Assembly: GCA_950295325.1 (NCBI GenBank) | Contig: OX485809.1 | Span: forward strand, 22,134,001 to 22,198,000 | Length of the DNA stretch: 64,000 bases | Source: Polytrichum commune | Taxonomy: Eukaryota; Streptophyta; Polytrichopsida; Polytrichales; Polytrichaceae | Reading direction: 5' to 3' | Part shown: positions 234-23,623 of the stretch, one piece after another | How positions within the stretch are numbered: position 1 is the first letter of the stretch | How the letters are laid out: the number at the start of each line of letters is the position of its first letter | The notes under the pieces: generated by a model | What the model was told of the DNA's origin: nothing | The model's database searches: none | The model's input: the letters and a program-made list of their open reading frames with translations, nothing else | Position numbers and translations under genes: made by a program

Positions 234-1376
234 CCTTGTCCATTCCGACCATGGTATCAATGACTACTTGTCCTAAACCACTTGTTAAACGACTACGGCG
301 CATATCTGGTTCACCTGTGGTGACGTGTCTAGCATGATTGTCATTTTGAAGTCATTCAACTGACTCAACGACGAACTCTGTTGAAGACCTCACAACATAG
401 TCATTTTCTGTCCACCGTATATCATCCACTCCATCCACTCGTGTATGACGTGGATATGGGATCATGACCTAGTTATTCATAAGTCATTCTTTTGTAATCA
501 TTCACCGACGAGGATGCACTATAACTTTGTATTAACATTCTTATATGACGTGGCATTTAGGGCTATAGAATGATGTGGAAAATAGGGAAATTTCATAGGA
601 GCAACAATGACAGTAATAATGACGTGTCATATTAATGACTACCTTGGTAACGTCAATGACTTGGGGTGTGCAGTAAGTTGAGGTGGCATACACCCCTGCA
701 CTCTATACCCAATACTAGTTGTTTCCGTCTCGTTTTCATGTTATTCTTGTACATGTGGCATGGAATTTGTGCATACTATGACAAGTCATTATTAAACATG
801 CTACCAGATTGCAAAATACTTTTATTTTAACTGTGGTTTAATCCCTTCCTTCTATGCCAACGACCTCCAAATGGCACGAAACTTTTTGAGAGTGATACTA
901 GTAAAAATATGAATGTGCTATAATTAAATAATATTTAACATGTCTAATTAATTGGGCTAGTCTTGAAATAGGATTCTGGGTCGTATTAATTAAAGTTTAG
1001 GGAGGACTTATGGAGGGTGTGAATATTATTTGTAGCATTTGAGATCCTGTTTGTCATAATCGTTCATACATACATGACTATTGTGTACCTCATCAATAAC
1101 CTTGCCACGTCAACAATGAGCGTAAACATTGCATCTACACAACAATTTGCTATCCCAACCGAAGTGAAAATTTAGTCATTATTCAGTGCTTGTACATTCT
1201 TATATGCCATGTCACGCAATCAAGGTTAGCATTAGCAATAGTGTTGTCGGAATGACGTCATAGTTTGGACATATTGGACTCATAGTGTAGTCATACTTGC
1301 CTACTGTAAATTCTAAGTCATTGTTGAGAATTAGAATACAGAAACTATATTTTTTCATACAAAATATAATGTCAAC
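234..1376. other. CACTA-1 left subterminal region
   Basis: No gene is seen. This 1.1 kb has many scattered copies of short motifs such as agtcatt, atgact and gacgtgg in both orientations. That pattern is typical of the subterminal repeats to which CACTA accessory proteins bind. It also holds the 3' flank of the transposase gene, whose stop codon is at 1377-1379 on the minus strand. Confidence 0.6.
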
Positions 1377-4300
1377 TTAAAACTTGGCGACTGCCAACAA
1401 ATTATCTTTGTCTGATAATTCAATGGCCCCTACTAGAAAGACAATTCTTGGAGGTGGGGGGACATGCTCTAGAGCACTCATGCCTTGATATTCTAAGCTA
1501 GTTGTTATGAAAACATCGGACGTGTCTTGTTCTTCCCTCCTTGACCGTGCTTCCTTTCGCAATACTACCTTCCACCCGGGTTTTCTGAAATCATTGGAGA
1601 AAAATACTTGTGTAGCTTGACTTGGGAAAATGAACGGGTCCAACATCTTGGGTACTTTGTGCCGAGAATTCACCACCATAAACCCGGCATCGTCCCGTAC
1701 ATAAGTTGGATTCCCACGATTATCTTCTCTTTTCAACCACTCGCACCGAAAAAGAATTACCGGAGTTCGCAATGGACCATAATCCAACTTCAATATATCT
1801 TGGAGCACTCCCACATAGTTTAGGGATACTTCAGATTGAGAGTCAACAGTGGGTACTTCAAATATAGAAGCAATTCCACTGTCGTATGTTTGCAACAATG
1901 CTGATTGTGAATCTTCCACTCGAAAGTGGTTCCCAAATGCACGCATCCTCGTGTACCGTGTTGCTTTTTGGGATGGCCTGCTACACAACAAAATCCTGTC
2001 CATGTCGTCCCCGTTGTTGGGATCGTGTGGATGGATGTGCACTGCTTTTTTAACCCAAACATCAAATGGTTCGATGTTGCCATTTGCATCATGTGCATCC
2101 CTCCATTGCCTGAACACAACATGGATACATTAGTATGTGACTCACAGGTGTCATATACTTGTCATATTACAGTCATTGAACCTCCAATAATGAATGAGGA
2201 TGATGATGAAGTCCTGCTACAGTCATGATTCACTGAAAAATAACTACACAGCGACTATTGAATAGTCTGCTCACCGATGCCAGGGTTCCAAGAGTGATAT
2301 GTTTGTTAAAACATATTGATGAGCAAGTTCTCTCAATGGAGGAGTCATGACATAACTTGAGTCTGACCCCTCCAGAACCTCCTCTGCATCTCCGTATTCT
2401 TCATCTGCGTCCCACACTCGTCGGTCGACAACCTCAAACCTCTGCAGGTATTCGGTGATGAACCCAAGGCATTCATCCTTCACATATCCCTCTGCCATGG
2501 AGGCCTCTGGTCTTGCCATGTTCCGCACATAGTGTTTCAATGTTTTCATGTACCTCTCAACAAGGTACATCCATCTTGTAGAAACAGGTCCACACAAATC
2601 CAGTTCCTCCACAAGGTGATACACCAAGTGAGTCATAATATCAAAAAACGACGGAGGGAAATGCATCTCTAAGAGTGCCATGCTCCGAGCAACGTCAAGT
2701 CGAAGCCCCTGAAACTCAATGGGATTCCACACTTTGCTACAAATTCTCCGAAATACCTTCGACATCCTCATCACTGCCATTCTTGGTCCTGGTGACAACA
2801 AACCCCTTAAGCCTAACGGTAAGATTTGATGCATGAGTACATGGTAATCATGCGACTTCAGTCCCCCAAAGTTCTTCTTCCGTATGTATTGAGCCATGTT
2901 GGATATGTGGCCTGAAGGTGCTTTCAGAGACTCAATAGTGTTGGCAAATATGTCAAACTCCTCGCTAGTCAGTACATAAGGGGCTGCAGGTTTTAACATT
3001 TTTCCAGTTTTTTTTGGGTTGTTGGTTAGCCAAAGGTGTTTCCTGATTCCCCTACATTGCAGATCGCGTCTAACTTTCACAGTGTCCTTATGCCCCGTAA
3101 CAGTCTTCAGTATGTTCTTCGACAGATTTTGTTCGCAATGCATAACATCTAGTGTGTATCGAATAAGGAGGTCCTGGTTCAGATAAACACCACAAACATT
3201 TAAGTTTAAGAGATTGAAATTGCAGTCAAAACATACACTCCTCAGTTGTAGTTGAAGTTTTGTCATTCTGTTGACAACGTGCACAAAAAGGTAGTCGTTT
3301 CTTAGTCGTTTAAGGGTCCAGCTGGACATAAATACAGTCACTCCACAGTCATTTTCAAGATCCTAACATTACATCATTGCAGAGTACAGCGTAAACATCA
3401 ATGGATGCAGGTGGACTCTGAACCGGGAACATTCTGCGACAATATGGATTCAAGTGCGTCTCTGGGCTTGCATTGCAATACTTGCTGGTTTAAGGTGCAG
3501 ATAATTAAAAAAAAAATGCGTCAGGCAATACCTTCCAATATGGCAAATCGTTCAGAATGCTTCTCCTCTTCACTCCATGTATTTTTGATGGATCTCCGTC
3601 ACTGCCTTCTCTGTTCGCCTTTCTGAGCCAATCCTGGTATTGCAAACCCCTTAGTTCTTGCTTTTCTGCTGTGACGACTCTAGGAGGTCCTCGTTCTTCC
3701 GCGCGGCCGTTAAAGTGATCCTTCATTCTACTAGATCTCCATGGGTCATCAGGTGGAAGCCATCTTCTTGTGTCCGTGTAAGTCTGTTTCCCAAGCTCAA
3801 TGGAATGTTCCCCCCTAAAATCTGGCCCACAAACTGGGCATGCAACAAAGCCTTGGTGTGCAATGCCTGCTACTGTTCCATACCCTGGAAAATCATGGAT
3901 TGTCCACAAAAGTATTGCCCTCAAATTGAAAGTCCGAAACCCAACCTCTTTCGAGATGTCATAAGCTAACACCCCTCTCCATAACTGTTGCAATTCTTCA
4001 ACTAGAGGGGCCAAATACACGTCAAAAAATTGGCCAGTAACAGATTGTTTTCCAGGAATAAGCAGGGCTAGCATGATAAAAAATTTCTTGGTTGTCAACC
4101 ACGGTGGAATGTTATAGTTAAGCAACATCACTGGCCATGTTGACCAAGTGGAGCGTTGAAGCTTGAAAGGATTAACACCATCAGCTGCAAGTCCCATGTG
4201 TACATTTCGGGAGTCCTGTCCAAATGTGGCATCCACATTGTCATGCACATGGTTCCATGCCTTGGAATCACATGGATGTCTAACCATCCCATCCGAGCTC

Positions 4301-5304
4301 CTGTTTTTTGAATGCCATGTCATGAGTTCCGATATGACTGGTGTTCGAAACATGCGTTTTAGTCTAGGAATCAAGGGGAAATGTCTAAGGACTTTCCAAG
4401 GTCTTTTATGTTGGCCCTCATCTTTATACCGTGGAGCATTGCACTTAGGACAACGGACAGCATTTTCAAGAGGTCCTCTATACAACACACAACCGCCCAC
4501 ACATGCGTGAATAGTCTTGTAATTTAGCCCCAACCGTCGAATCAATGATTTTGCCGCATGGTAATTCTTGGGTAGTCTGTTCTCCCCAGGAAGAAGGTGT
4601 AGGCGGAAAAGAGCGAATACTTGATCGGCGAATTTGTTGCTGACTCCATGGATTGTGCACAATGTCATGATCAAAATCGTGGCAGCTAAAACTGAGGACT
4701 TAGCTCCATCGTATAGTTCCTGGATTGCCTCCTCCAAATCATGTGGTGCATCCTCTTTGTCATCCTCATTGCCTAGGTCTCCCATGGGTTCCTCATCGTC
4801 TGAATCACCCGAGTCACATGCACCCTCTTGTAGGCCATCAACCACAGTAAATGCGTCCATTACGATGTCCTCCATTGTTTCTTCCAGAGGACGTTGTGGC
4901 TGGTCATTTTCCTGGAATACATCCTCCACCATTGAACGCACTTCGATGCCAGCGTCCATTCTCCCATCTTCATGTGTCATGCGCGGTGTTTTCAGCTCTT
5001 CCTCCCATTCCTCATCAGACGAATCCCTGTCACCTGGGCCTCTCCATAGTCTAAAAGTGGGTTCTCTGCCATATTGGATGAGGTGCTCCTTCACCTTTTC
5101 CAGTGAGCACTGCACACGGCCCTTGCACTTGGAGCATGGACAACGTATGCGTTTCAGGTTGTAGAATATTGCCCTCTGCTGCTCCCTCTTCCATAGCCTA
5201 TCGTCTCGCAATTGTTGCCTCCTCTTGTCGCTAACAGGTAGTCTCCTTTGCTCCATTCTAAGTTCCAGAGCACATACATAATTTCCATTGCCAGCCATCA
5301 ACAC
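1377..5304 (-). CDS. TNP2-type CACTA transposase, three exons, apparently intact
   Basis: Spliced model complement(join(1377..2109, 2275..3173, 3532..5304)) gives 1134 residues with no internal stop. Both introns are GT-AG, of 358 and 165 bp, and the joins restore conserved sequence: ..LPYWK/DLLIRYTLDVMH and ..EPWHR/QWRDAHD. Domains in order: a Cys-rich N-terminus (CPCSKC at residues 55-60, like the transposase-associated domain), an acidic linker, a CPKC finger at ~285, Transposase_21 with HMGLAADGVNPF at 369-380, a DUF4218-like region in exon 2 and a DUF4216-like region in exon 3. This is the full architecture of plant TNP2/TnpD proteins, which are thought to cut at the CACTA ends. The ATG at 5302-5304 is the first in frame. 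A short upstream exon cannot be excluded. Confidence 0.93.
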
Positions 5305-7084
5305 TGAGTGTTAGGCATGTGTACGTGATTGAAAATTGACCAAATGCATGATAGTCCAAATTCATACCTACCTAAGTGCACTGAAGGTTTCACTTATTAC
5401 ACAGGTAGGAGGATTCCGCATGTGTTTACAGTGCTCTGTGTGTGGAGTGTTTACAGTGACCCGTATGTGTTCTCACATCCTAAATAAGGGCCACAGAAAT
5501 AATGTAGTTGCAATATACTCCTTCCTCTCTTGACATATAGTTGTTGTTTACTCTTTTTGTGTCCCACGTGGACAACCATAAAGTAATTCCTAAGTCATTT
5601 TAGGATTTATGCGTGAACAAAATATAGTCATTCACTGAATTTAAAAATCATTCACTGTTTGTTTGAAGCATCACTATGAAGTTAACCTTACACACTACCC
5701 CCAACAAATACAATAAAGAAATGTGGTCTTTTCATAAAGGAGCTTGAAGAGGTGCTAATGGGTTACTAAGTTGCCTTGAACCCAAGGGCCACTTAGTGGT
5801 CTCATGGGACAATAGGAGTTAGATTGTTTGAATGTCTAGCTCCAAACCTATTTCAGACATGCATGTTACCATTAGTGAGCAACTAGGACGGTTGTTCCCT
5901 TCCCTTACGCACTTTTAAGGGAACAGGTTGAAGACAAGATAAGGGCCGCGACCAACCAATGAATCTGGAGAATTGGATGCTAGTTTCAATTACAACCGGT
6001 TCAGTTTGAGAAATAACCATTTGAAGTTCAAGACTTCAAGAAAACTACTGAGGACTTTTAGAGGAATCTATAGAAGACACCTCGAATTAGTAAAGAAAGC
6101 CCGAAAGATGTGAAAAGATATTCAATTGGACTTAGAAATGCCCATGTTGAATACAATATTAAATGTTTCCTTTGTTTGTAAGGAAGAGCCCACTGAAGCC
6201 TTAAAAGGCATAGGGTCTCAATATACAGCCATATACACGATATACACATGTCTACGCAAGTTCAAATTTCAGAATTTATTTATATTGTGCAAGAAAATAT
6301 TCAACAACACTAGGATGTTCTAGGGGGGCCGCCGAACCAAAACTCAAGATTCAGGAACTTATACCTGGGATGCTAATACTTTGTGAACTTCAACATGAAG
6401 TTCAATAAATGAACAATCAACCCAACATGTTGTATAACTCGCATTATCTAATTTGGTCTTCACCAACCATTTTGGTCCTTTTATTTTTATATACTTTGAT
6501 ATGATTCTCACAAAAGTTGTCCTTTAAGTCAAATTTAACAAGATGTGCACTGCATATAATATGGAAATTTCATACTTGTGGCTACTCTCTTTCTAAAAAT
6601 AAGAGGCTAAAGAGTGTTTACAGTGCTCTATATGTGTTCTCACATCCTAATTAAGTTTCAGAGTAATAATGTAGTTGCAATATACTCCTTCCTCTCTTCA
6701 CATATAGTTGTTGTTTACTCTTTTTGTGTCCCACGTGTACAACCATAAAGTAATCCCTAAGTCATTTTAGGGTTTAGGGTGCCCAAAATATAGTCATTCC
6801 ACAGTCATTTTTTGGAACACGTGGACATGAATATAGTAATTCCTAAGTCTTTTTCGTATATGCTAGGCTTTTTGGTGCCGTTGAAATCTACCCTAATCCC
6901 TAATGCTACAACATCGTTTAGGTATGCCTCAGATTGAAACGGGATAAACTACGACTCTGAACCCCTGACCACTCGGCGATCAAATAAGCAAGTATTGTGT
7001 ATGTAGGAGGTTTAGGAAAGTGGGGTCTTAGGCACAGAAGCGTGAGATGGTAGTGGAGAGGAGAGTGGGGAGGTAAAAAACGGG
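5305..7084. other. CACTA-1 central intergenic region with a duplicated block
   Basis: Lies between the divergent transposase and tnpA-like genes and so should contain both promoters. A block of about 210 bp at ~5420-5660 recurs in direct orientation at ~6612-6830, sharing ttgttgtttactctttttgt and ccctaagtcattttag-type phrases. Between them is ~950 bp of AT-rich sequence resembling the dispersed repeat at 62.6-62.8 kb (shared wording around gttcaagac and ttagaggaa). This looks like a later insertion or duplication inside the element. No coding sequence is recognised. Confidence 0.55.
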
Positions 7085-7290
7085 AGAAATCCGAGGTGAA
7101 AATCTTGCTAGTACCGAGGTTAAAATCAAGTGAGTGCCGAGGTGATCACTCGTGTGAGTGCCGTGGGTAAAACTTGTGTGAGTGCCGAGGGTAAAATCGT
7201 GTGAGTGCAGAGGGTAAAACTTGTGTGGTAGATTGAGGTGAAAATTGTGTGAGTGCCGAGGGTAAAATCGTGTGAGTGCTGCGGTAAAAA
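7085..7290. repeat. G-rich minisatellite upstream of tnpA-like gene
   Basis: Imperfect tandem copies of a ~23-bp unit of the form gtgtgagtgccgagggtaaaa, about eight copies. It sits just before the first tnpA-like exon. A comparable G-rich repeat lies in the same relative place in the second CACTA element (25.88-26.2 kb). Confidence 0.8.
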
Positions 7291-7355
7291 GGTTGCGAGG
7301 GCCCAGGTTTAGGATTGAGGGTAGTGAAAGGTGGGGTTTGCATTCACAGATCTCC

Positions 7356-10300
7356 ATGGATGGTAGCACAAATCTTCCTGAGCACAGCTTAAATTCTGTG
7401 CAATCCCCTTTAAAGCCTAAGCACAATGAAGCTGCAAAAAAGGGAGAGTGTAGTCATACCTTTGGCGTAGATGTAGATGAGGCCGCACTCAAGGGAGAAT
7501 ACGAGCTTGCCCGCGACAAGCGTGTAGCCGCACTACAGCAGTTCTTGAAGCCTGTGCAGACTGCAGCCACAGCACTGTAAGTCCTGTAGCAGTTTTTTTG
7601 TATTTCTTGACGTATGCAGGTTGAGCAAGTTTACTATTGCGACAGAGCGGGATTAGTAGCACTAGGGCGAGGTTACTTTTTGGGCAGAGACGAGGTTACT
7701 TTTTGGGCAGAGTCGGCCATCACTTGTAGTATAATCACTTCACACATACAGTAAATACCTGCTCACATCTTCATACATCAGCTGCTATCTGCCAACACCC
7801 TCTGAGCTTAGGATTTAGGTTTATTCATTTGACTAATACTCACTAATGTGGCATTGTGAAGGCATCCTGCATAACCAGGCTCACTGATGGTAAAATCTTC
7901 TATCTCCCTCTGAGGTTTGCCATTGCCGCTATACACTGAGTATTCCTTCCTCTTGCATCCGTAACCCCTGTTCTCTTGGACGCTTGCAGTAACTAGGTTA
8001 GGTATTCAAATTTCCGCCATCAGTTTCGTGGAGTACATAGAAGCACTGTGGTCATGCCAGCACTACCTTCCAGCTGACATTGTAGGAGTAATTTTTAAGT
8101 GATTTTTTGAGTTTAGATGATGTTGAGTAATTTGGTTGAGCCACGTATGATGGGCTCCATGGTCTCACACGTGGACGGTGGGGATTGCGCGCCATGTAGA
8201 CCAGCGTCCTCGAGGGCTGCGAACCCACGTCACTCTCTAACCCTACCACCTCTCTTCGTGCACTTGCTCGCTGTGACTCTGTCAACTCTGAAGTGCCATG
8301 TGTAGATCCGTGTAGATGCTTTGGATGTGTGTGCACTCAGGAGATTTTGTTGGGGTGGCAGGCGTGACATGGTGAATTCAGAGAACCCAAGAGTACGCCG
8401 CGAACCCGCACCAAACCCCTTCAAGCCCCCGCGCAAGAGCAACAGGGAGTGTGTTCTGAAGAACTCGCAGGTGGGAGCCCACAACGACATGGTAATCATA
8501 GCCGAGGATTCGGACGAGACACTGCCCGAGGACGAGTGGGAACCAGGTAAGTCTCTCACTCGCAGATTGATTGCTTGCGGATTTCAGAACCCTAGGGAAT
8601 CTTTCAACCTACTTGCTTCATTGCTTGTGTCTTGGTTGCATGCAGGTGGGTTGCTTGGTGTTTAGAATTGGCTTTCGAGGTTGTATGTACTCTGATCCAG
8701 AAGGCAATGTGATGTGTGGGTTTTTTAGATCTGGGGTTTTAGTGGAATTTGGATTACTCACTTGAAATAATGCAACTCTGTATGTACTCTGGTCCATAAA
8801 GCAATGGGGTTTTAGATCTGGGCCTTGAAGAATTTGGATTGCTCACTTGAAACTGGTTTAGGGTACATTGAGATGGTGGGTTGGTGTTTAGAATTGACTT
8901 TTCAGCAATGTATGTACTCTGGTCCATAAGGCATAGTGATGTGTGGGTTTTTAGATATGGGGTTTTAGTGGAATTTGGATTACTCACTTGAAACTGGTTT
9001 AGGGTACATTGAGATTGTGGGATGGTGTTTTCCACAGTCATTTCGAGGTTGTATGTACTCTAGTCCATAAAGCAATGGGGTTTTAGATCTGGGCCTTGAA
9101 GAATTTGGATTGCTCACTTGAAACTTGTTTAGGGTACATTGAGATTGTGGGTTGGTGTTTGCCAGAATCTTTCGAGGTTGTATGTACTCTGGTCCATAAA
9201 ACAATGTGATGTGTGGGGATTTTAGATATGGGCTTTGGCAATTTGGATTACTCACTTGAAGCTGGTTTAGGGTACATTGAGAAAAATCATTTTTCAGAAA
9301 GAAAAAAAAGAAGTCATTTTCAAGTAGCCACAAGTATGACTAAGCACATCTACCTGTCTCTTATTCTCAAGAGTGTTAGGAGTGATCAAAACATGAAACC
9401 CCACTTTCTAAAAATCTGGATGAATCTTTGGAGCTAGATGGAGGCTAGTTGGAGTGCAAGAACTAATGCTTCAGCAGTCCAGGCCATGATAGAATTAGTT
9501 CCCCTTATTACTTTTGTCCCATGTTGGAGCTACTAGGACCTTTGGCTCAAGAAAGGGTTACCTTCAGAAATACCTAGGTGAGTCTTCTCGCAAATACTGG
9601 TCTATTGCTTTACATGTATCCCTTTCCCCAATGCCTTGAAAAAAAGATTGAGAAACATCTCTGCCTGCAAATAGATTTCCAAGTCCGAGAGATTTTTATG
9701 TATATTTTTCGAACTTATACCTGTAGATCTTTAAATGATAAAACCACTGGGCTTCCATTTCCATCTCCTTTCCTGCTTCCGTTGCCTCTTCCTCTTCTTC
9801 ATCAGCAGCTGCCTTACTCCCTCCTAATAACTCCCTCAACAGTCATAGGTTGGGGCAATTCCTCGTCTTCCTCTTCAGCAAATTCAATCGTCTCAACTAC
9901 AACAAAATCATGCCAATCAATCAATGCCATTTGCTGACTAGTTGACTTTTCTTTTTCTGATGTAACAGGCGTTGAATTACTTGATACAAGATGAGGGCAA
10001 GCCTCCTCAGATTAGTTCACATGTTGCTTCCATGTTTGCTTAAGTGCTTAATTGCTTGCTTACTTGTTAAGTCAACTCCTTCGTGGGCGTAGTGGTCTAG
10101 GGTTTTATGGTTTTTAAGATACGCCTTGAGACTGAAATATATTAAACTTGCCCCCAACCTTTTTATCCATGCTGCAGACTGCTCTACAGACTCGGAGTCG
10201 CTACATGAAGGCACTCATGTTGTGGCTGGCTCCAGTGCTACAAAGAGAAAACGAGCTAGAAAATTTTTGAAGACTCCAGAGAAAAAGGTACGTGTTAAGG

Positions 10301-13300
10301 CTCTCCTCCCATCTGCAGTAATTTTCCAATCCATTTGGAGTAAGCTTGCAGTAAGTTTGAAGTAAGCTTACAGTAAGTTCACAGTAAGCTTTTAGTATTG
10401 GATTACTATTGTGTTCTGCCACAGTATTTTTTCACTACTTCTACAGTACTTACGCAGTATTGTGTGTCAAGAGCTACCTGCCTAACCATACATGCTTCTT
10501 TCAACCAGTATACACGTCATTGTATACCCTAAACTGTCTATATGTTGTGGTGAGGGTTAGGTTGCAGCAAACCAAGGGGACAACTCCACACCTGGATTAC
10601 CTCAGAGCCAATGGCCTTGGATGCAACCACCGTGGATGCAACAGCCATCTGGGGCCATGGGGCAATCCATGCAACCAGGACCTGGAATGATGCCGCAACA
10701 AGCCCCGTGGATGATGGGACAAGGAATGCCATGGATGATGGGCCATCCATACACTAACCAATGGATTCCTCCGCCAGCACCTCCACACAACATGTTCAAG
10801 ACCAATTTAAGGTAAAGGCGGATAGTGAAGCAAGAGCGACACGGAGAGCCACTAGGAAGGAGGCAGAAACAAATGTGGAATTGCAGCGCTCTGGAGGCCA
10901 GAAACCTCATACACTGAGAGTGAAAGCGGGCGGTGGCATAGATGGCGGATGTGAAGGCAAGAATGCCTTTGATGAGGCGCTCCGCAGCCTGGTTCCTCGC
11001 ATTTTGGATGTAAGCGTGCTAAAGTGGAAGTTCCAGCCTCCAGGCTCTGTGGAGAAGCTGAGGTCTGCCATAGACAATGAATTTGAGTACTTGGGACATA
11101 GTCTTTCAGACCTTGGCTTCAAAACTGCAGTCAAGCGTCAAATGAAAACAGAGAGGGCCAAAATGAAAGGTTGGTTTATGTCTGGCAAAAAACAATGCCA
11201 TGTTTTCATTGAACCTGATCAATGGGCACGATTATGTGAATATTGGTCGGCGCCCGAGACAGAACAAAAGGCGCAGTTGATGGCGAAAGCAAGGCAGCAA
11301 GTGAAGAACATGTCGAATGTTGGGAGGGGAGGAAAGGCTGGAAAAGAGGCTCAATTGGTAAGTAGCCCTAAAACTTGATAGTTTGTAAGTCACTTCACAT
11401 GTTTATTATATCAAATTTGATCTAATGAGGCTAAAGTGCATTTGTATGACAGCGGAAAAAGAGGCAGAGGAGCCCAGGGATTACTGAGATTGCGGAAGAG
11501 TTCCAAGAGTCTGAGCAGACTGGAGTTTGTACATCTGTAAGTATGGAGGCTCTATTCAACTAATCTTATTGTCTTGGGTTTATGTAGCTCAGTTGCAAAG
11601 GTAATATAGTAACTTCAGAGTACTGTGAACTGCCGCAATGAAGTTGGGTGTAGGCTGGGCTTAGTCCTGGGTATATGCTGTAATTTTGCATTCAGTCTGA
11701 TTAAAGTAGTTGTTGGGTCCTTATTGAGTCATAGTTCTGTCATTATGTAGTGAGTTCACAGTTATATTGCTGGGTTTTTGTAGTAATTCCTAAGTCATAG
11801 TTCCAGAAGTTCAAGTAATTCTTCTGAAAGTTTTTACAAGCAGGTTCCAATTGGTTAGTGTCAAGCTCCGCTGCAATTGACTTAATTCCACTTGAGCTGC
11901 TCTTATACTAGATCACATGATAGGTTTATGTCCTAACAGATTGCCAACTCCTTGCAATCAATGGCTGTCATCATGGTGTTTCAATGTAGCCCTAGCAATC
12001 CATGGATGTGTTCACAATGGATTATGTAGCAATCGCAATTGCATATTGTGTGTATGCTGGAACCATGAGGTCATAATGTGGTCATCTTCTACATCCAGTC
12101 TGCTGTGGCTAAACCATAATAATTTTGTACCTCGTTTGTGCACAGCAAGGAGTTTTTGGGAGGATGGCATCACGGATGACAGCAGTTGAGAGCCAGCAAA
12201 ATGAGCTCAAGCAGCAGTTATCCGAAGTTTTGCAGAGTTCACAACAAAACACCCTGGTTCTAAATAACCTTTCGTCCATGTTCTCCATCATGATGGAGAA
12301 ATGGGGTAACCCAGTGACTGTATGCGAGCCCAAGTCGACTACACCCCAAAACACTAACTCCCATATGCCTAGTTCAGATCCCATGTTCAATTCATGCGAT
12401 GGTGGTGCAGGTGACACCGCCCCTAAACCAATTTCCAAGGTGTTGGAATCTGGAGCTCCCAACAATGTGGCTAAGGTGAATGGGGAGGGTGTGATGGGGG
12501 GTGGTAAGAGTCCAGAGGGTGCTAGCGAGGTAGGCGCTAGCAAGGTAGGTGGAACAGAGGCACTTCACACACTTGCAGGTGGACTTTTGGAAGCTGAAGC
12601 AGCCGCGGTTGGGGAGCACACTCCTCGCGAAGGTGGGAATGGGAAGGATGGGCTCGATTTGTGTGCAAAGGGTGCAGGAAGTGGGACCTTGAGAGAGGGA
12701 AGTGGTGACGGTGGGACTGTGGTTGCTTTGGCCGTGGAGGGTGGGATTGCAGGGTCTGGCAATGGAGAAGGTAGGTCCCATCGAAGTGGGAATGGGGACG
12801 TGGCTCCGCCATCGTCACCAGGGAAGAAAGTACCTCCCACTAAACCAAGGAGGAAAAATAAGCACCATTCCCCTAACAGAGTAGGTGGTAGTGGCAGTCA
12901 AGAGGCTCATCCAAATGACCAGGTGAGCAGCGACATCGAGAGAATTGGTGCCCTAAACCCAGTTAAATTATTGATTTTTGATGTCCATGGCACGCTTTTA
13001 GATTGCAATCTATTGTCGGAGCCAAATCCTAACACCTCTATCCGTGTGACTACGCGGTCTTCGACACGACGGATAGTGTTTAGGCCATGGCTTAGTGAAT
13101 TCATAGACAAGTGCTTTAGAAATTTCAGAGTTGCATTTTGGGGTATCAAGAGCACATCAAACATGGAAGATGTTTTGGCATCGATGATGCGGAGGTTTAA
13201 TGGATTGGGTAGCCACAAACCTGTGTTCATATGGTCAGCCAAGGAATGTGAGGAGTATAGTGAGAACATTGGGGTGTCAAAGTGGAAAAAACCATTGGCC

Positions 13301-14213
13301 AAAGTGTGGGCGACGTGGCCAGAATGGAATGAGGGGAATACAATCATCATTGACCACCACCGAGCTATGGTGGACTGCAACCCAGCTGCGAACATCATTA
13401 TCCCGCCCGCATTCTATGTGGAGGACATCACCAAGCTTGCAGATGATAACAATTACCTGAGATTTGGTTTGTGGCCTATTCTCAAAGGCCTACTTGGTAG
13501 TGTTGATGTTCACCAACATGGTAGTGTGTTGCCTAACACCAAGCAGGCAATTGGGGATACTTCGCGAAATGTACAGGCTGGTGGGAGGACAACGAGGAGC
13601 TCGAAGATGAAACTTCCAGACACATCCTTGTCGGGACATCCTCCTTTGTCAGGTTAGGGGAGCTGTGAACTACTGGTTCACACTTTGCAATGTCCCCTTG
13701 CCTATGTTACATTGAACTCACTAATGGGCTTCATATGTTGGATTTGTGCGCAGGCAAATCAAGGGAAGGAGCTTCGAAGAAGGACGGTGAAAGCACTTGA
13801 CAACGCATTGAATGAAGGACCCAATGTGCACCGGGTATATAGCTAAGTACAGTAGCATTTGATTTATAGGTTCCGAAGGTTTAATTTGGTGTTGTTGCAT
13901 AATTTCTATGTCCCTTGACATGTTGCGTGTTGCAGATGTTGGGCTGGGGCAGTTTGCTATTGGCCAAGTTGTGCAGTTATTGAATTTCAAGAGTCCGCGG
14001 CAGATTGTGGCATGCGGAACTGTTAGTGGTGTGTGGGGGGTAGATAAATTTCATTTCAAACCAATTCCCCACTCGTTCTACAAGGTTGATGTTACACAAG
14101 TACAAGTGGGTGATGCCCCTCTCATGCATCCACATCCAGAAGGGGATCAATTAGTTGTGGCTGATGTGATAGGAGGCAGTGCGTTATGGAGCCAGAAGCA
14201 TTTGAAGGCTTAG
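7356..14213 (+). CDS. CACTA-1 tnpA-like protein with Transposase_24-like, FCP1/HAD-like and DUF8039-like domains
   Basis: Multi-exon gene. Supported exons are 7356-7576, 8362-8546, 10178-10287, 10561-~10810, ~10811-11357, 11453-11536, 12146-~13650 and 13936-14213; most joins keep phase at GT-AG sites. Exon 1 holds the motif GEYELARDKRVAALQQFL, common near the start of plant transposon accessory proteins. The exon ending at 11357 resembles Transposase_24 (..EPDQWARLCEYWSAPE..). Next come a coiled coil (TAVESQQNELKQQLSEVLQ) and a Gly/Ser/Lys-rich linker. An FCP1/SCP-like HAD domain follows: LLIFDVHGTLLD at 12971-13006, VAFWGIKS, a Lys-rich motif III and IIIDHH. The C-terminus resembles DUF8039. 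The P/M/Q-rich stretch near 10.6-10.8 kb changes frame before the next exon, so a short intron or a frameshift lies there. The 13754-13834 segment may be an extra exon. Likely role: binding subterminal repeats. Confidence 0.75.
8650..9290. repeat. ~130-140-bp intronic tandem repeat
   Basis: Five imperfect copies within an intron of the tnpA-like gene. The shared phrase tgtatgtactctggtccat starts at about 8682, 8779, 8909, 9050 and 9179. Units also share ttggattactcacttgaaac and ggtttagggtacattgaga. Confidence 0.85.
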
Positions 14214-15301
14214 GAAATTTTGAGCGTAGCAAACATGTTTAGAAGATTGAAGGGTTAGGACACTGAAGGGGCTAGGACTCCCAGTTGATGCGGAATGGAG
14301 CAGTACAGTGTAAAAATGCACATTCCCAAGGCAATTTTGATAAGTTAGGTGGCACTTGTTGTATGTGTGGAACCACACTTATTTTCAATATGACATCGAA
14401 AGTGGATTAATGAATGTATGACTCGAATTTGGACTCATAGTGTAGTCACACATGAAATGCTTGAGTTGTTGTTGTTGTAATTGATTAGTTGACATTTCAA
14501 ATGCAACCAATAATAGATTATAATGAATGACTACTCTATGACCGCAATCAATGACCACTCTATGACAGTATTGAATGTCCACCCCATGTCTACTCTATGT
14601 AGCCACTCTCTCTACTCTATGACTACTTTATGTCTACTCTATGACTACCATATGACTACTGCATGACTATAATCAATGAGTAACATATGACTATAATGAC
14701 TATAATCAAACATATGACTACAATGACTATAATCAATGAGTAACATATGACTATAATGAATGAGTACTATATGACTATAATGAAGTCCACATGGCACTAT
14801 CGGCATATACGTGGCAGTTCATCCAAGCGGGACATGGCCATATCAACACCGATGATGTGGCAGCTCAAATCACGGCATGATCGCCACGCGTATGTTACCT
14901 GGCAAACAAACACATACATTCAACTAGAGAATGACTACGCATTTTAACACGTGGCATTATGCGATTGGAATGGTTTCGCCACATGTAAGTATGAAATTAT
15001 GACACGTGGCACAAACTCACATTGCAAAAGAGAAATGCTACATCCTCGAAGACCCTGCCACATAGATGGTGACGAGGATGCCATGATGTATGCCTAGTCA
15101 GCAGCTGGCCACCACGTCGGAGCCACGGGGCAAAAGAGACTCACGTGTGACCTATTTGGATGAAGCTGACATGGAATCCATGTCATGTCCACAATAACTA
15201 TATGTCCGTTACAACTTGTCCATAATAACTAAAAAAATTATAGTTATTCTTGTCCTTTACGACATGTTTTAGAGTTTTAAATACAGCTGTTGATTGATGA
15301 A
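14214..15301. other. CACTA-1 right subterminal region
   Basis: No gene is seen. 14530-14790 is a dense array of tgactac, tatgact and ctatgac motifs, many in tandem (tatgactataatgaatgag repeated). This is followed by several cacgtgg/gacgtggc motifs to ~15120. It is interpreted as the right-end binding region for element-encoded proteins. Confidence 0.6.
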
Positions 15302-15313
15302 ATTCTTCTAGTG
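15302..15313 (-). repeat. CACTA-1 right terminal inverted repeat
   Basis: ATTCTTCTAGTG, the exact reverse complement of 222-233, followed by the AGA target duplication at 15314-15316. Confidence 0.95.
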
Positions 15314-16269
15314 AGATATGGGCACCTCGCTGTACATTTTCGGGAGGTTCAAGGTGAGAGCTGGGGGCAGAAATGTGAGGTTATTCTCTGATTTTTGGTG
15401 GCTTCCTAGGGTGGCTGGATGGTCCTTAGTGAGGTTAGAAGTTAGAGCTAGGGGCACTGTCGGATCCGACAGACCCCTAGGGACAGATATGAGCACCTCG
15501 GTTTTGATTTTCAGGAGGGTGAAGGTGAGAGCTGGGGCAGAAATGTAAGGTTATTATCTGATTTTTGGTGGCAGCCTAGTGTGGCTGGATGGTCCTTAGT
15601 GAGGTTAGAAGTTAGAGCTAGGGGCACTGTCGGATCCGACAGACCCCTAGGGGCAGATATGGGCACCTAACTTTTGATTTTCAGGAGGTTGGAGGTGAGA
15701 GCTGGGGGCAGAAATGCGAGGTTATTATCTGATTTTTGGTTGTTTCCTAGTGTGGCTGGGTGGTCTTTAGTGAGGTTAGAAGTTAGAGCTAGGGCACTGT
15801 TGGATCCGAAAGACCCCTAGGGGCAGATATGGGCACATCGTTTTTATTTTTCGGGAGGTTAGAGGTGAGAGCTAGGGCAGAAATGCGAGGTTATTATCTG
15901 ATTTTTTATGGCTTCCAAGGGTGGTGGATGGTCCTTAGTGAGGTTAGAAGTTAGAGCTAAGGGCACTGTCGGATCCGACAGACCCCTAGGGGCAGATATG
16001 GGCACCTCGCTTTTGATTTTCAGGAGGTTAGAGGTGAGAGCTGGGGCAGAAATGCGAGGTTATTATCTGATTTTTGATGGCTTCCTAGGGTGGTGGATGG
16101 TCCTTAGTGAGGTTAGAAGTTAGAGCTATGGGCACTGTCGGATCCGACAGACCCCTAGGGGCAGATATGGGCACCTCGCTTTTGATTTTCAGGAGGTTGG
16201 AGGTGAGAGCTGGGGGCAAAAATGTGAGGTTATTATCTGATTTTTGGTGGCTTCCTAGGGTGGCTAGAT
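15314..16269. repeat. 170-bp satellite array, right part
   Basis: Five to six head-to-tail units. The palindrome CTGTCGGATCCGACAG starts at 15457, 15627, 15797 (degenerate), 15966 and 16135, so spacing is 170, 170, 169 and 169 bp. Around it the near-palindrome extends outward to ctagggg...cccctag. Short open frames here simply follow the repeat and are not genes. The array is cut at 16270 by an LTR sequence. Confidence 0.92.
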
Positions 16270-17096
16270 TGTCGCAACCCTTGCTAGTCCCCTTAAAAAT
16301 CTTGCCAATTCGTATTTCTAGCATAGGTTACGAGTACTAACCCTTCGCATACCACCAAGCTAATGGTTAGCTCCTCCTACCCCGGACCATATAGTTCATA
16401 GGAGGGGAACCAACCTTCCTACTTTGCTTTCGGGACTCACCCCTTAATCGGTAACCCATTCCCAAATGTGGACTTCTATCGATGGAAGTCCAATTCCATG
16501 TTGATCATCGCGTTGCCGGAGCAACACTACAACAACCCGAACCATACTAGGCAACTATGGCCTCACAATGGGCCAAAGCCCAATGAGGCCGTGCCGTTCG
16601 GCCTCGGGTGGGTGAGGCCACACCACCTCAGCCATATAAGCCTCTAGGACTCTACGAGGGGCCCCTACCCCACCGTCAACCAACCTCTTGTCTCTCTACC
16701 AAGAGTTGGGGCCAAGTAGACATTTTCCTTTAGCTGCTGGGCTTAGAAGCCCCTAACAGCTTCAGACCACCATAACTTTCTTGTATGATTTTTTATTCCA
16801 ACAACCAACCACTCCATCTTCATCTACGCTTCACGTAGATGCCGATGGATCCCTCACTTGACCCATTCATGCAAGTATTGACGACGTTATGCCTGTTTGA
16901 ACCTTGGCAGTCCCGGGAATGACTCCCAGGCAATGCTCGACCAGGGCGCTGTCCCGCGACAGCGCCCCACTCAAATGGCCATAACTCCTAGCTCACACCT
17001 CCGATTGAGGTGTTCTTCAGCTTTCTAGAATCACCACGCCATGAGCTACGCATAGCTCATGGCCTTAGTCTTGTGCCTCCTAGTCTCCGAGGGTGA
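16270..17096 (+). mobile_element. Truncated LTR of an LTR retrotransposon
   Basis: Starts TGTCGCAACCCTTGC and runs co-linearly and closely similar to the solo LTR at 42900-43860 until about 17096, where similarity stops. The last ~140 bp of the LTR and its terminal CA are missing. It is inserted in the satellite, which resumes at ~17240. No matching target duplication was found, which fits a 3' truncation or rearrangement. 17097-17240 is unassigned sequence ending in a purine-rich patch. Confidence 0.8.
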
Positions 17097-17239
17097 GCGG
17101 TGTCTGTAGGCTGCGAAGTCTGTGTGAGCGGAGCGGCGAACCCATAACCCTTGCTTCAAACCCACTAGGCATCCTTAAAGAAAGAAAAAAGAGAAGGTGA
17201 AGGTGAAGGTGCGTTTCTTCTGCTTTCTTTTTCATCGTC

Positions 17240-18200
17240 CTTAGTAAGGTTAGAGGTGAGCGTTAGGGGCACTGTCGGATCCGACAGACCCCTACTGGCA
17301 GATATGGGCACCTCGCTTTTGATTTTCGGGAGGTTTAGGGTGAGAGCTGGGGGTGGAGGTTTAGGGTGGTTGGATGGTTCTTGTGAGGTTAGAGGTGAGA
17401 GCTAGGGGCATTGTCAGATCCGATAGTCCCCTTGGGGCAGAAATGTGCACCCGAATTTTTTATTTTTGTTGGACTTTTTGGTAGGCCAGATGTTCATTTG
17501 GACAGGTATTAGTTGGGGGTTAATGCACGTTAGTGAGGGTTTAGTCATGTTTAGATGCTCTTAGTGTGGTTCGAATTGATAGCTAGGGGGGGATTTAGAG
17601 GTGCTCTATAATCTGTTTGGCCTTTAAGGGTTTGGGATGCTCTTAATGTGGTTCGATTTGATAGCTAGGAGGGGCACAAACTAGAGGTCAGATTATAGTG
17701 GAGAGAAACAGGGCAGATTTGCTAGCATATTATGTGAATTCTGGTAGATTATGTGGGTGGCCGAAAGCTCCCAATGAGGCTAAGGTTAGAGGTAGGGGTC
17801 TGAAATGTGTTTGTTAGCATCTGAATATTTGTGGCTGGCTTTAGCTTGTGAGGTATGATATGGAAGCCCAGGGGCACTGTCGGATCCGACAGTCTCCTAG
17901 GGGCAGAAATGTGCACCCAAAATTTGATTTTTGTTGGACTTTTTGGTAGGCCAGATGCTCATTCGGGCAGGTATTTAGTAGGGGATTGTGCACGTTAGTG
18001 AGGGTTTAGTCATGTTTAGATGCTCTTAGTGTGGTTCGAATTGATAGCTAGGGGGGATTTAGAGGTCAGATTATATTTGAAAGAAACAGGGCATATTTGC
18101 TAGCATATAATATGATTTCGGGTGGATTTTGGGGGTAGCTGAAAGCTCACAAGAAGGCTAAGGTTAGAGGTAGGTGGATTTTGTGGGTGGCCGAAAGCTC
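17240..18200. repeat. Diverged satellite and ~470-bp higher-order units
   Basis: The palindrome recurs at 17272-17287 and 17877-17892 (perfect) and at 17411-17426 (degenerate). Two long units starting near 17410 and 17877 share tttttggtaggccagatg, cacgttagtgagggtttag and tgctcttagtgtggttcgaa. The unit is therefore larger (~470 bp) than the upstream 170-bp monomers. It lies directly upstream of the ParB/methyltransferase gene and could be its promoter region or just older satellite. Confidence 0.75.
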
Positions 18201-18311
18201 CCAATGAGGCTGAGGTGAGTTTGGTCGTATTATCATGTAAATATTGGGTGGCATTGTTCATCCTATTGGTTCTTATGTTGGCAAGTAATTGATTCTTAGG
18301 AGATTGTTGAG

Positions 18312-21300
18312 ATGGTTGCGGATGGAGAGTCATTGGATGTTGGGGTTCGCATTGGCGCTGGGTCATCCCTTAGTGTAGAGGAGCATATGGAGCAAGGGTC
18401 TCCGTTGTCATGTGCTGAACCTACTAGGCTTACACCTGGTAGTGGCGAACCGCAGACACCCGGGATGACACTCACCGGCTCACCACCAGAATCGGATGTG
18501 GGTGTTCGTGTAATGGAGTATCGGATTCGCCACAATTTTTAAAAAAATAGTTTTTCAGTTATTGAGGGCATGAGGATACAACCGGTCGAAAAGTCCTCTA
18601 TGAGAATCCCCCTCTGCAGGTTGATTCACTTGCCATTGGTTCGGCTGACTCTTCGCACCGACGTTACAAAGCTCATGGCAGCATTTCAATTTGGATACCG
18701 AGCTGGGTCTGCCACTTTTTATGTGTCTACTGCAAATGAGAGTGGAGATAATCGATTCATTTCTGCCAAAGACAAGCGTGAATGGGGAGAGCTATGGAAT
18801 GCAGAAAATGATAAGTTTGAGTCTTTTTTGCGCTCGGATAAGGACTTGATGAGCCTTAGTGGACGCATGTTCTTTGTGTATGATGGTAACCACCGCTTGC
18901 TAGCGTGGAAGGAGTGTATTGAAACAGATCACAAGGACGATGCACTTTGATACGAGAAGCATGGTTGCCCAGAATGTGTCATCTTCGACACAACGGGTGG
19001 GCGTGGAGACCTCCTTAATGCAATGCACGACATAAACAAGTAAGTTTGTTATTTTTTTGAACATTTTTTCCTTCATTTTTTTATTTTCATCTAATGTCAT
19101 TTATCTCAACCGCAACAGGGCTAACCAGACTGCGTACGTTAAGACTAGCCTTGTTCACACTCTACACCGCATCCAAAAATATGGTTCGTATGATCTTAGC
19201 TACTACCAACCATTGTTGACCGAGGAGCAATTCCAAGCGTGCAAGAGCAGAGGCCCCAAGAGCCCTTGGTACCCGTTGACCCAGGATCTTATGGTGTCCT
19301 TCATTTTCAATGTAAGTCACTCCAAATTCATCAAGCTCCTACTTCGCATTCATTACTTTTAGTCATGGTCTAACAATTTAGAATACATGTCCAGCAAGAG
19401 ATAGCCGATGCGGTAGATGAGGCGGCCCAAATCTTCAAGGAGGAAGTGCCTCTAGATGAGCAGTCAGGGAAGGGGTTGAGTGATGTATTGGAGGCTATAA
19501 TTAAGAAGACGTCTGAGGAACTTGGGCACAAGTTCAACAAACAACAGTCGATCGCAAACCCTGCCCTTGGAAAACAGTTCCTACATGAGGTAATTTCCTT
19601 GTCATCCAATTTGGAATTATGCTTTTCGTATTGCTTGCATTCTTTGCAGCATTTTTTCAGTAAACATTCTAAAATTTACTTGGCCTTCTATTTTGATTGC
19701 ATTTTTTTCAGATTACTAGGCATTATAGCGCCCACCATTCTCAAAAGATTGAGATGACATTGGAGAAATTGCAACTCATTGCCACTGCCGTTGTCGAGCC
19801 AGAGTATAAAGTCCGTTGGCTTAAGTGGTGGAACAGTGGAAGTTTCAATCGTGAAGCTATCCGGTTTCCCAAAAGTCCTGCAAGCGAGGACAACTTGAAA
19901 TCTTGGCTCAATAAAGCAGCGTTCTGGGCAGGGGTACGTCTATCCTATTTTCTTTGCTTACCTTTCAATTCTTCATTTTGTGCCAATTCTCATGTTCGCC
20001 TTGAATTCCTTCACAGCTAGAGGATGCTGCGGTCAAGGAGTTACCGGATATACTAAGTGCATTGGGTGGGCTTGACGGAGACGTGGAAGTTGATTCGTTG
20101 CCGGATTACTTGGAGAAGTGGTGAATTTGCCTTTGGGATAAGGCGTTCATTGGTCACTTCTCAGGGTCAGATATCTATGGAAAGGGGACGTGGTGGAAGG
20201 ATGTCAAAGGCGCTGACAACATTGTCAAGCGCTTAATTTTCCGGTAAGTTAGTTGGGCCATCTTTTGTTCTCATTTATATCAAACTAGTTGTTTTCTAAG
20301 TTGCTTATTGGCCTCACTCCTTGGTTGTGAAGGTACATCAAGCACGAGCTTTTCAAGAAGAAGGCTTTGAAGAAGCTTCCTCCATTTCTGGATGCATGGT
20401 CAGATTCCTCTTCGCCCACCTTCATTTTTTCCCCGGCTCAAAAGCGCAACTTCTCCCTCCCGCATCTCCGCGAGTGTTGCTGGTACTTGGAGTGTAAGAG
20501 GACGTGGCAGCCGGATGAGGAGGCGGCCTTGAAGATTCGGCTCTCCGGTGGAGAGCCACCTTCTCAAAGCGATGAGGTTGTTCTTCTAGAGAGTCAGCTT
20601 CCGGAGGCGGATGAGGTTGTTGCGACTCTCGATGAGCCCAACACTCAGAAGTCCAAGAGGAGGAAGCGTGCGACTCAAGACGAGTCTTCACTAAAGAAGC
20701 GCGCGAGGAAGCTGAAGACTGTGGAGGATGATCCCCCTACTTCACCTGAGGCGACAGTTGCATCCACTGCAACTCTTAGTCAAGTTCCTACTCTTTCCAG
20801 GCCGCCTCCTCCGCCCGTTCTTTCATCTGCTAGGCATCCTCCAGTTATTTCAGAATGCATCTTGAATGCCTCTATTCTTCATCAACGTCGTCATTTTCAG
20901 GATGTTTCCAACTTCATTCTTTCTCTTCCACCCTCTATCCGCGGAGAGCTCTAGGCGTTGCGAGGTCAGATGTGGGCATGGCTGATCTTGTCATTGCCGA
21001 CCTCCCGGAGAACCTGCCGGTACCCAATGTCTCCGATCCTTCCTATAGTGTGCCTTCCTGGAATGCATTGGATTCCGATTTTATTGGTGAACTCTTCGAT
21101 TTCGCGGACGAGATCCTGCATGACGATGGAGCTCTCCTCCTCTTTCATCCAGATGACAATGGTGATTTCAGGGAGAGCATTGAAGATCACTTCGCTGCTT
21201 TTGGGTTCACGATCTTCAAGGAGTGGCTGGGAGTCAACCGTCTTCGCCTACATTCAGCTAAGCATAAGGACAATACCACCAACCTCTTCCAAGTTGTACT

Positions 21301-22243
21301 ACTTGTTCGTGCCACCAAAACAATTGAATCTGACCTTGATAAGCGGCCCCGGCACTCGTCATTTCGCCTTCGCGATGCCAATGAGCTCAAGGCTCTTGGC
21401 ATTGAGCTCGACATGGATGATGCGATTATGAATTATACCGCAACTCCTCTCATGGACGGCTCCAAAGCTTGGCGTGGTCCCCGGGAGAAAGATATTTCTT
21501 TCATGTCCTCCTTGATCATGGCCACTACGGACATTGGACAGGTTGTGGTGGACGTTAATGCAGGCGCTGGTATGTCCTAATTCACTTGCCAACATATCCT
21601 AGTTTTCAATTTCTAAGTTTGTTTTTTTTTCCTTTGCTAACCTTTCCTCCGCAACAGGGACTTCTATCCATGCATGCAGGCAGCTTGGGCGCCATATCGT
21701 TGCTCTTGAGGAGGACGAGGACACCTTCAACCGTGTCCTTAAGCCACTTAAGAGTGTTCAGCCTACGGTGAAGGCTCCATCCATTGTTGTTGCTTCCACG
21801 CAGGCTTCACAAGGCACGTAGAAGAGGCCGCCGGCCTTGAAGCGATCGAGGCCAGAGCCCTCACAGTAAGTGAGTATGATGACCTTCTTCGCTTATTTTC
21901 TTTGTCCATTCAGCTTTTACACTTTCCATCCTCTTTCTTACATTTATCGTGTTTTTTTTTCAGACTTGGCGTTGGAGCGGATGTGTTGGGTACTCCCACC
22001 ATGGGATTCACATTGCCTATCTATGCCCATGATATGGCGATGGTACTAGCGGCACAACCTTCTCCTACCGAAGCTAGTTCCCCGTCTCCACGTTATGACC
22101 CCCGTGCCTTAGACTTCTTCGAGCATTCTGCGGAGGTGGATAATGAGTGCCATAGCTTAGATTCCACTTCAGATGAGGGCGGCCATGAGGGTAGTATCTT
22201 TGGAAGTAGGGAATCTAGTAGTGACGACCTCATGGTTGATTGA
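18312..22243 (+). pseudogene. Degenerate ParB-like / N4-N6 amino DNA methyltransferase-like gene
   Basis: Exons ~18312-19039, 19119-19311, 19395-19589, 19712-19933, 20017-20243, 20333-21569, 21658-21865 and 21964-22243 join in phase at GT-AG sites. The N-terminal part has a ParB/Srx-like signature (VYDGNHRLLAW at ~18877-18909, then HGCPECVIFD). A middle Lys/Arg-rich, Pro-rich linker holds likely NLS (KKRARKLK). The C-terminal part reads DLVIADLPENLP (motif IV position), GALLLFHPDD, then VVDVNAGAGTSIHACRQLGR and IVALEEDEDTF (SAM-binding motif). This order, catalytic motif before FxGxG motif, is that of beta-class N4/N6 methyltransferases. Lesions: in-frame stops at 18540 (may be intronic), 18948, 20122, 20952 and 21819, and a frameshift near 20.98 kb. 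The motif-IV position is DLPE, not DPPY. ParB-methylase fusions are known from phages and bacterial mobile elements. This copy looks non-functional. Confidence 0.7.
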
Positions 22244-22611
22244 TTTTGGGTTTGATTGATTTGTTGGTTTGATTTATCGGTATTTGGATTTATAAAGTGT
22301 TGTGTGGATTTCAATATTCCAATTATCTCATTGAATGCATCTTTTCGTTGTTCTCAAATCACGCTTCACTTGGTGGTCGTCATACTCCAAAGAGAATTTA
22401 GTCCACCATCTTCTCACAATCTTAACCGCTAGTCACAAAACAATGTAGCATCCACCCACTCCAATAAAAAGTTGTTGCCTCACACACCTCCTCCTTGTTT
22501 CCTTGAATCATAAGTATTCAATAATATTTGTTGCACACCACCCAACACACTCCAATTCATACTACCCGCATTGCATTCTTCATTTTTGTTCACCATCTAT
22601 AATGTTCACCC

Positions 22612-23024
22612 TCAAATGTTCACCCTCTATAAATGTTAACCCTCGGGAGTGGATCGAACTTTACATGTATAAAGGTGTTAACAGTTAACAATTATAAAAT
22701 TACTTCTTTGAGCAATATACAAATCTTAACATGTCCTAACTATAAGCAATTGTGAAGAGTAATTGTGAGAGAATATCATACACAAAATTGCAAACCCAAT
22801 CAAAACTTTATTCAATATCAAGTTTACAAATCATGGGTGAATTATGAATGTATTTCAGTCGTTAACATTTATAGAGTCAAATTTACAAAGAAGGGAACAC
22901 CGTTTTGTTAACAATTAACAGGTTTAACATTTATAGTGTGCAATATGTAGGGAGTAGAATAAAGTGAACATTTGGAAATGGTTAACACTTATAGGTGTAA
23001 CAGTAATAGAGGGTGGACTGTATG
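22612..23024. mobile_element. Possible MITE / foldback element
   Basis: An AT-rich segment with imperfect inverted ends: gttcaccctctataaatgtt near 22616 against aacagtaatagagggtggac ending near 23020. Internal gttaacatttatag phrases recur in both orientations. No coding sequence. Family not recognised. Confidence 0.4.
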
Positions 23025-23302
23025 TGGAGAATTTTTTTCGCCAACCTCCTTCATGTCACGTTCAAATAGTAAATATTATTTAATTTACCGTAATATAAAA
23101 TATAGTACACCATTTTGGTAATTATAATTGTGACGTCATAGTGATGTAAGCCCTAATTTTGTATTTTATTTTAATATTTCTATGTTTCAAAAATCTATTA
23201 ACTTTATGAATAGGGAAATGTTACTTTATTTCCACGGTAATAGAGTCCATAACTCTCCAAAGTTTCTAAAAATAGTTCAACATTTTTCCCTCAATCCCGC
23301 GG

Positions 23303-23623
23303 TTATAGGTGCAATTTCTCTCTCATTTCATGTCTCAAATTGAGTTCTCCGCTCTTCGGTCTTCGCTCTCCGCTTTCCGCTCGCATACTAACTTTCCCCG
23401 CTCGATCGAGGACTTTCCCTCCTGCACACTCCATGCAGGGGCATGGGTACTTGGATAGCCGCATTGCATCTGCTTGGACCTCTTCTTCTTGCCATAACTG
23501 TAGATGCTTCAAGCTTTCGACCTCCCCTCCTGCCATCCTGTGGTGTGCACGGCATACGCGCTGGGTCAATTTGTGATATGGGAATACCTTACAAGGAGGA
23601 AGTGCTCGTATGCACGCACTCAC
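23303..23623 (-). pseudogene. Orphan first exon of a TNP2-like transposase
   Basis: A ~106-codon open stretch on the minus strand containing KYPCPCMECAGG. This resembles the IRCPCSKCKG region at residues 53-62 of the intact CACTA-1 transposase, and is preceded by a similar charged/Gln-rich segment. Nothing downstream (22.3-23.3 kb) encodes Transposase_21, so the catalytic part has been deleted. Its position upstream of, and divergent from, the tnpA-like gene at 26.86 kb matches the gene order of CACTA-1. Confidence 0.5.

Follow-up and report, generated by a model that had tools for sequence, protein, structure and literature searches.

Among the systems that most resemble the one reported here is VANC of Arabidopsis, a transposon-encoded protein that, in the accessible part of its published account, binds short motifs accumulating as variable tandem repeats in the non-coding parts of its element and brings about a loss of DNA methylation (PMC5735166). 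The protein domains involved recall a different literature: a survey of the ParB-CTPase fold published in 2025, as far as its accessible text goes, names sulfiredoxin as the commonest eukaryotic representative, reports ParB-N6_N4 methyltransferase fusions as more frequent in phages, and describes no plant case, the word "plant" being absent from its main text (PMC12704722). Among the open-licence papers listed for ParB/methyltransferase genes in plants or eukaryotes, we found none that describes the family that concerns us. It is represented in a 64,000-nucleotide stretch of Polytrichum commune DNA (hereafter the window; contig OX485809.1, C7:22134001-22198000 of a 407.8-Mb genome in 64 contigs), where a gene at 18312..22243 on the forward strand joins a ParB-like region to a methyltransferase-fold domain. 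This gene accompanies a transposase-like one as the second gene in a large DNA transposon of 15.4-16.4 kb. The locus resembles VANDAL21 and VANC, as presented in the accessible part of that work, in that the transposon carries an additional, non-transposase gene and repeats a short motif in variable tandem arrays of its non-coding parts (PMC5735166). Unlike in VANC, the protein here combines a ParB-like part with a methyltransferase fold and the motif is a palindrome, and the likeness noted is one of arrangement.

That the gene belongs to a mobile element, as a preliminary description of the window had supposed, is borne out by its copy number and by the ends that its copies share. Exon 6 was found at 40 scored places among 66 candidates on contigs C1-C7, a count that is a lower bound: 22 are full-length at 98-100% identity (the window's own included), one is partial at 99%, and 17 stand at 91-94%. 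Homology stops after CATACTAACTTTCCCC in all ten copies that we fetched from the same genome and in the window, where this 3' terminus lies at 23384-23399 (compared with three other copies) and is followed at 23400-23409 by the 10-bp target duplication GCTCGATCGA, for which both ends of the copy were read. The window holds the right-hand part of this copy (1..23399, forward strand), which begins 9,080 bases to the left, at C7:22124921. Three copies extended 10 kb further upstream have a common 5' start, GGACGAGACTTGTATG, measure 16,382, 15,775 and 15,365 bp, and are each flanked by perfect 10-bp duplications; with the window copy, such duplications are present in four of the four copies for which both ends were read. 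Because intact copies of the gene differ by only 2-7 bases in 3,291, we conclude that the element has moved recently.

The other gene of the element is transposase-like and divergent from the ParB-like gene, lying on the opposite strand at 573-4393 of the 16,382-bp copy (c7a); judged from its reading frames, it probably has one intron. Mutator-like transposons generate target duplications of about 8-11 bp, and the 10 bp seen here falls in that range. By eye, the strings NLAESIHNKW and CTC...CKH of the transposase-like gene resemble the motifs of Mutator-like elements (MULEs) and of SWIM. The element thus shares with MULEs its 10-bp duplications, inverted termini and a large transposase-like gene in which a C/H cluster looks SWIM-like by eye; unlike them, it has no Pfam MULE transposase match, carries the ParB-methyltransferase gene, and ends in imperfect, purine-rich terminal inverted repeats (38 of 53 positions matching in c7a). 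Despite the Mutator-like duplications and the motifs seen by eye, we have not filed it as a MULE because a transposase match is missing.

Splicing of the window copy joins eight exons with GT/AG borders in one phase (18312-19039, 19119-19311, 19395-19589, 19712-19933, 20017-20243, 20333-21569, 21658-21865 and 21964-22243), and the identical borders yield open frames in five genomic copies, in agreement with the exon structure first proposed. The signature strings reported earlier are all in place: exon 1 holds VYDGNHRLLAW and HGCPECVIFD, and exons 6-7 hold DLVIADLPEN and VVDVNAGAG/TSIHACR. Between the two recognisable halves lies a middle region (KLQLIATA...RW..WWN...FPKSPAS...AAFWAGLE; 19119..20954, forward strand, exons 2 to early 6) that is conserved in the alignment to the distant homologue described below and for which Pfam offered no known domain, only a sub-cutoff SPATA19 match (E 0.049). 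The window copy had been called broken, and it is degenerate: in-frame stops interrupt it at four places (18540, 18948, 20122 and 21819), and exon 6 contains a frame change, with a stop following immediately at 20952.

Intact relatives, whose existence had been predicted, are close at hand. The gene is open for 1,096 amino acids (aa) in five of the ten fetched copies, the other five having a single stop (three copies), a frame change (one) or an insertion (one). The ratio of non-synonymous to synonymous polymorphism (pN/pS) among the intact copies, 0.29-0.87, is based on 2-7 differences and says little. Further afield, a scan of genome contigs returned one relative, L001 (CADCWO010000058.1), on a 4,691-base contig, which when spliced gives an open 1,136-aa protein from seven exons. 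It is 29% identical to the conceptual protein of the window over 1,117 aligned columns and has the same layout; its introns match those of the window in phase and, by eye, in place, the fifth intron of the window being missing. L001 is filed under a cyanobacterial metagenome-assembled genome yet has a clear eukaryotic intron-exon structure, and we read it as eukaryotic contamination of the public record. Since the intact copies and L001 each read as one protein, the alternative that the two halves are neighbouring genes is rejected, and the fusion originally claimed stands. When the complete conceptual protein was the query, none of the 7,998 scored candidates in a protein database reached E<=0.001; exon-sized queries gave 58 relatives for exons 6-7 and 88 for exons 1-2, none of them with a precomputed Pfam label, and four of the exon-6 relatives (P0001, P0010, P0035 and P0040) read through from the middle region into the methyltransferase in a single frame.

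The two divergent genes of the element are separated by a tandem array of units of about 170 bp, most of which include CTGTCGGATCCGACAG or a variant of it. The window preserves this array in three parts, delimited by self-comparison, tandem repeat finding and palindrome scanning: part 1 at 1..221 (palindromes at 20 and 191), part 2 at 15314..16273, each of its units with CTGTCGGATCCGACAG or a variant, and part 3 at 17234..17932, where the last palindrome (17877-17892) lies 419 bases upstream of the ATG. Part 1 is cut by a complete, nested CACTA/EnSpm-type element of 15,092 bp (222..15313), inserted later, with the terminal inverted repeat CACTAGAAGAAT and a 3-bp duplication, AGA. This element has its own ends and its own duplication, and the array resumes beyond it; it was therefore rejected as a part of the same system. 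Long open frames occur on both of its strands, for example at 3508-5310 (reverse) and 12113-13654 (forward). Also within the array is an 834-nt dispersed repeat (16270..17103) that recurs at 42890-43721 of the window with 91% identity, occupies the corresponding position in other copies of the element, and has further copies in fetched stretches (e.g., L035 and L041).

The palindromes share a 10-base core, TCGGATCCGA, which is concentrated in the array. All eight of its occurrences in the window fall there and none elsewhere in the 64 kb, set against a chance expectation of 0.017 for the window (mean of 60 first-order Markov sequences). In the ten fetched 20-kb stretches, which have 6-25 sites each, it occurs 148 times before the 3' end of the element versus once in the 69,214 bases after it, and the palindromes of copy c7a lie at element positions 6668-10848 of 16,382. 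The perfect palindromes of the array centre on GGATCC. The 551 bases upstream of the L001 gene contain another kind of repeat, about 107 bases long, whose palindromes reach 30 nt (AAAATGGGTCTCGGATCCGAGACCCATTTT); the same core, TCGGATCCGA, occurs there three times of three. By eye, the upstream units of L001 (1-410) are near-palindromic well past the 30-nt core, with GGTGACC/GGTCACC arms on both sides. A search with a double-palindrome pattern returned one stretch, L013, which is about chance level by our estimate.

The recurrence of this core suggests that the palindromic motif is the target of the protein. The palindromes could instead be ordinary repeats of a promoter that have nothing to do with binding by the protein, the shared core being a coincidence or the site of a host factor. 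Such a reading gains from the fact that just two independent families were compared. It has more difficulty with an identical 10-bp palindromic core repeated upstream of genes that are 29% identical, in upstream regions whose longest exact matches are 10 bases, the core being one of two such 10-mers. We consider the promoter-repeat explanation rather unlikely.

The C-terminal half falls into a known enzyme family. Its exon 6 part (20977..21569, forward strand) includes motif IV, and its exon 7 part (21658..21865, forward strand) the rest of motif I and motif II. The Pfam N6_N4_Mtase model (PF01555) scores 27.9 bits in the window copy and 29.2 bits in an intact genomic copy, over the curated cutoff of 26.7, L001 remaining under it at 20.5 bits; among 20 exon-6 relatives, which are pieces without exon 7, one matched at E<=1. 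Beta-class enzymes in PDB match this half (5hek, E 5.8e-5; CcrMI, 6pbd, E 3.9e-4), and the order of motifs, IV followed by X, I and II, is that of the beta class both in the sequence and in the alignment to these two structures. The beta-class homology asserted in the preliminary description is thus upheld.

The same cannot be said of the proposal that the gene encodes a DNA-modification module. Motif IV of the window copy reads DLPEN rather than DPPY/W, and that of L001 reads DVPED. Our survey of the 58 relatives of the exon 6-7 query yielded 37 with a readable motif IV, many of them close copies, as well as 16 with no match and five with strings that by eye lie elsewhere. The catalytic form [DNS]PP[YFW] occurs in none of the 37, the altered fourth position being E, D or K in every one, and the single NPPY string encountered (in P0056) sits outside motif IV. 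Because the DPPY/W motif is absent from every relative that could be read, DNA modification is not supported, an ordinary catalytic mechanism would not be expected of the domain, and the product is best classed, on its sequence, as an N6_N4_Mtase homologue rather than an active enzyme. An alternative that nevertheless deserves mention is that the protein is an active DNA methyltransferase, works by an unusual chemistry and methylates the palindromes at their GGATCC/GATC core, thereby marking the DNA of the element. Some bacterial beta-class enzymes mark GGATCC/GATC-type sites, and GGATCC is what lies at the centre of the perfect array palindromes; the domain is homologous to N6_N4_Mtase, close copies retain the G-x-G of motif I and the acidic residue of motif II, and in motif IV 35 of the 37 readable relatives keep the first D and 33 the third-place P. 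Set against these features are the replacement of the motif IV aromatic residue in all 37 and the erosion of motif I in distant members (ASTG, AATG), and we regard this possibility as distinctly improbable. A comparison can also be drawn with the N4-cytosine methylation of bdelloid rotifers, as described in the accessible part of that work: both concern a bacterial-type amino-methylation system in a eukaryote, whereas the one reported here is transposon-borne, fused to a ParB-like region and without a canonical motif IV (PMC8885841).

For the N-terminal half, the earlier assignment to the ParB/Srx fold survives in weakened form: a nearly invariant box and faint profile similarities are compatible with it, and no profile match is significant. 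The region concerned (IPLCRL...VYDGNHRLLAW...CVIFDTTG...LNAMHDIN; 18543..19039, forward strand, exon 1) was aligned with 33 relatives, across which the DGNHR box, similar to the GxxR of Box II, is nearly invariant. The commonest weak match among them is the PHROG family "ParB-like partition protein" (13 of the 33, best E 0.038), and CB_ParB_C, a ParB C-terminal family, was matched by two (best E 0.12). When low-occupancy columns and later regions were removed from the profile, hhalign against phage ParB-methyltransferases aligned the right box, weakly (4% probability, E 0.01); a global run with the trimmed profile aligned nothing. An AlphaFold2 model of the relative P0087 (m89d1fc642e7f; mean predicted local distance difference test score 77.9, predicted template modelling score 0.66) has an order of strands and helices that, in our reading of the model, appears compatible with a ParB fold. 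Because no ParB profile match is significant, we call this half ParB-like rather than ParB.

Phages provide near counterparts to the combination of the two parts. The methyltransferase half of the window, used as a tblastn query against phages, gave 700 records at E<=10, the best of the 20 listed having an E of 2e-4. Matches covering it fully include two fusions of ParB to N6_N4_Mtase according to Pfam, those of Streptococcus phage Javan159 (E 5e-4) and NatCom_3357 (E 2e-2), ParB_N being over its cutoff in Javan159 alone; a match from an Aeromonas phage is a shorter, separate methyltransferase. Like the window family, these fusions place the ParB part first and a beta-class methyltransferase second. 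They differ in being compact (415 aa in Javan159 and 413 aa in NatCom_3357) and in having an intact TDPPY, whereas the window family lacks DPPY, separates the two parts by several hundred additional residues, has eight exons, and barely connects to them by profiles in its ParB part. A viral source was not supported, since two pattern searches of viral contigs (A1 and A2) returned 33 and 11 stretches of which none was confirmed. The two ParB-methyltransferase fusions, the only ones tested among the covering phage matches, could be taken to favour a host gene or a captured bacterial gene that was amplified by chance hitch-hiking. We find this highly improbable given that the gene occupies the same position in each of the four copies for which both ends were read, and that its full length is conserved in a relative as distant as L001.

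Taking these features together, we put at about an even chance the proposal that the product is a DNA-binding regulator specific to the element, with a mode of action like that of Arabidopsis VANC. According to this proposal, the protein would recognise the TCGGATCCGA-centred palindromes, perhaps loading on them as a dimer in the manner of ParB, and may spread from them in a nucleotide-dependent, ParB-like fashion. It would thereby coat or mark the regulatory region common to both genes, and this coating or marking may sustain expression of the element in the face of host silencing, which is the role of VANC in VANDAL elements. Since DPPY/W is gone in the relatives read, the methyltransferase domain would most likely serve as a module for binding S-adenosylmethionine or DNA without ordinary catalysis. 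One more elaborate version, which we offer tentatively and hold to be the less probable of the two, is a parS-like partition or anti-silencing system built by a eukaryotic transposon, in which a ParB-methyltransferase-fold clamp would load on palindromic arrays within the element, its methyltransferase domain having become a non-catalytic reader and the palindrome core being kept across families of 29% protein identity. Alternatively, the protein may be a transposition co-factor rather than a regulator of expression, binding repeated sites so as to bring the element together for excision, as TNPA of En/Spm does. The two-gene organisation, the repeated internal sites and the recent amplification of the element would all suit such a function; the location of the palindromes between the two genes and not at the ends (6668-10848 in c7a) does not, and we judge the co-factor explanation unlikely.

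Several results weigh against parts of our preferred interpretation, that of an element-specific regulator acting through the palindromes. Pfam ParB_N is absent from the matches of the 33 relatives, NCBIfam gave no ParB match in 27 relatives, and a tblastn search of phages with the ParB-like part gave nine records (best E 5) and no relative; with the untrimmed profile, hhalign against phage ParB-methyltransferases reached 0.5% probability and aligned elsewhere than the box. The profile of the exon-6 relatives meets the PDB methylase CcrMI at an E of 0.5 at best, and its match to the phage ParB-methyltransferases is weak (11% probability by hhalign, E 0.0028), in the right register. Pfam finds no transposase in the transposase-like gene, SWIM alone appearing at an E of 0.14, below the cutoff. 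Lastly, the coincidence of palindromes amounts to two families only because the units of an array are not independent, and by our estimate the shared core, noticed post hoc, would arise by chance with a probability of 4^-5, about 1 in 1,000.

The remainder of the window has features of its own. About 250 bases past the 3' end of the transposon lies an array of 18-base tandem repeats (AGTCATATAACACATGGC; 23650-23804). Several distinct GTCATAT-rich tandem arrays occur around and between open frames (28708-32389) in the region 28428-32927, which also contains inverted arms at 29686-29723 and 32718-32755 and is perhaps another large element. By eye, exons resembling a 2-oxoglutarate dioxygenase are present at 47604-49611 (forward strand) and a JmjC-like frame of 600 aa at 55182-56981 (reverse strand); both are probably host genes.

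A protein that a transposon encodes beside arrays of palindromes, and that brings together a ParB-like region and a methyltransferase fold, could represent a new way for an element to manage its own DNA. If so, it would be a second and apparently unrelated solution to the problem solved by VANC in Arabidopsis, and the steering of host chromatin by a transposon would become directly testable. The protein and its 10-bp palindrome would then also constitute a ready-made, sequence-specific binding module.

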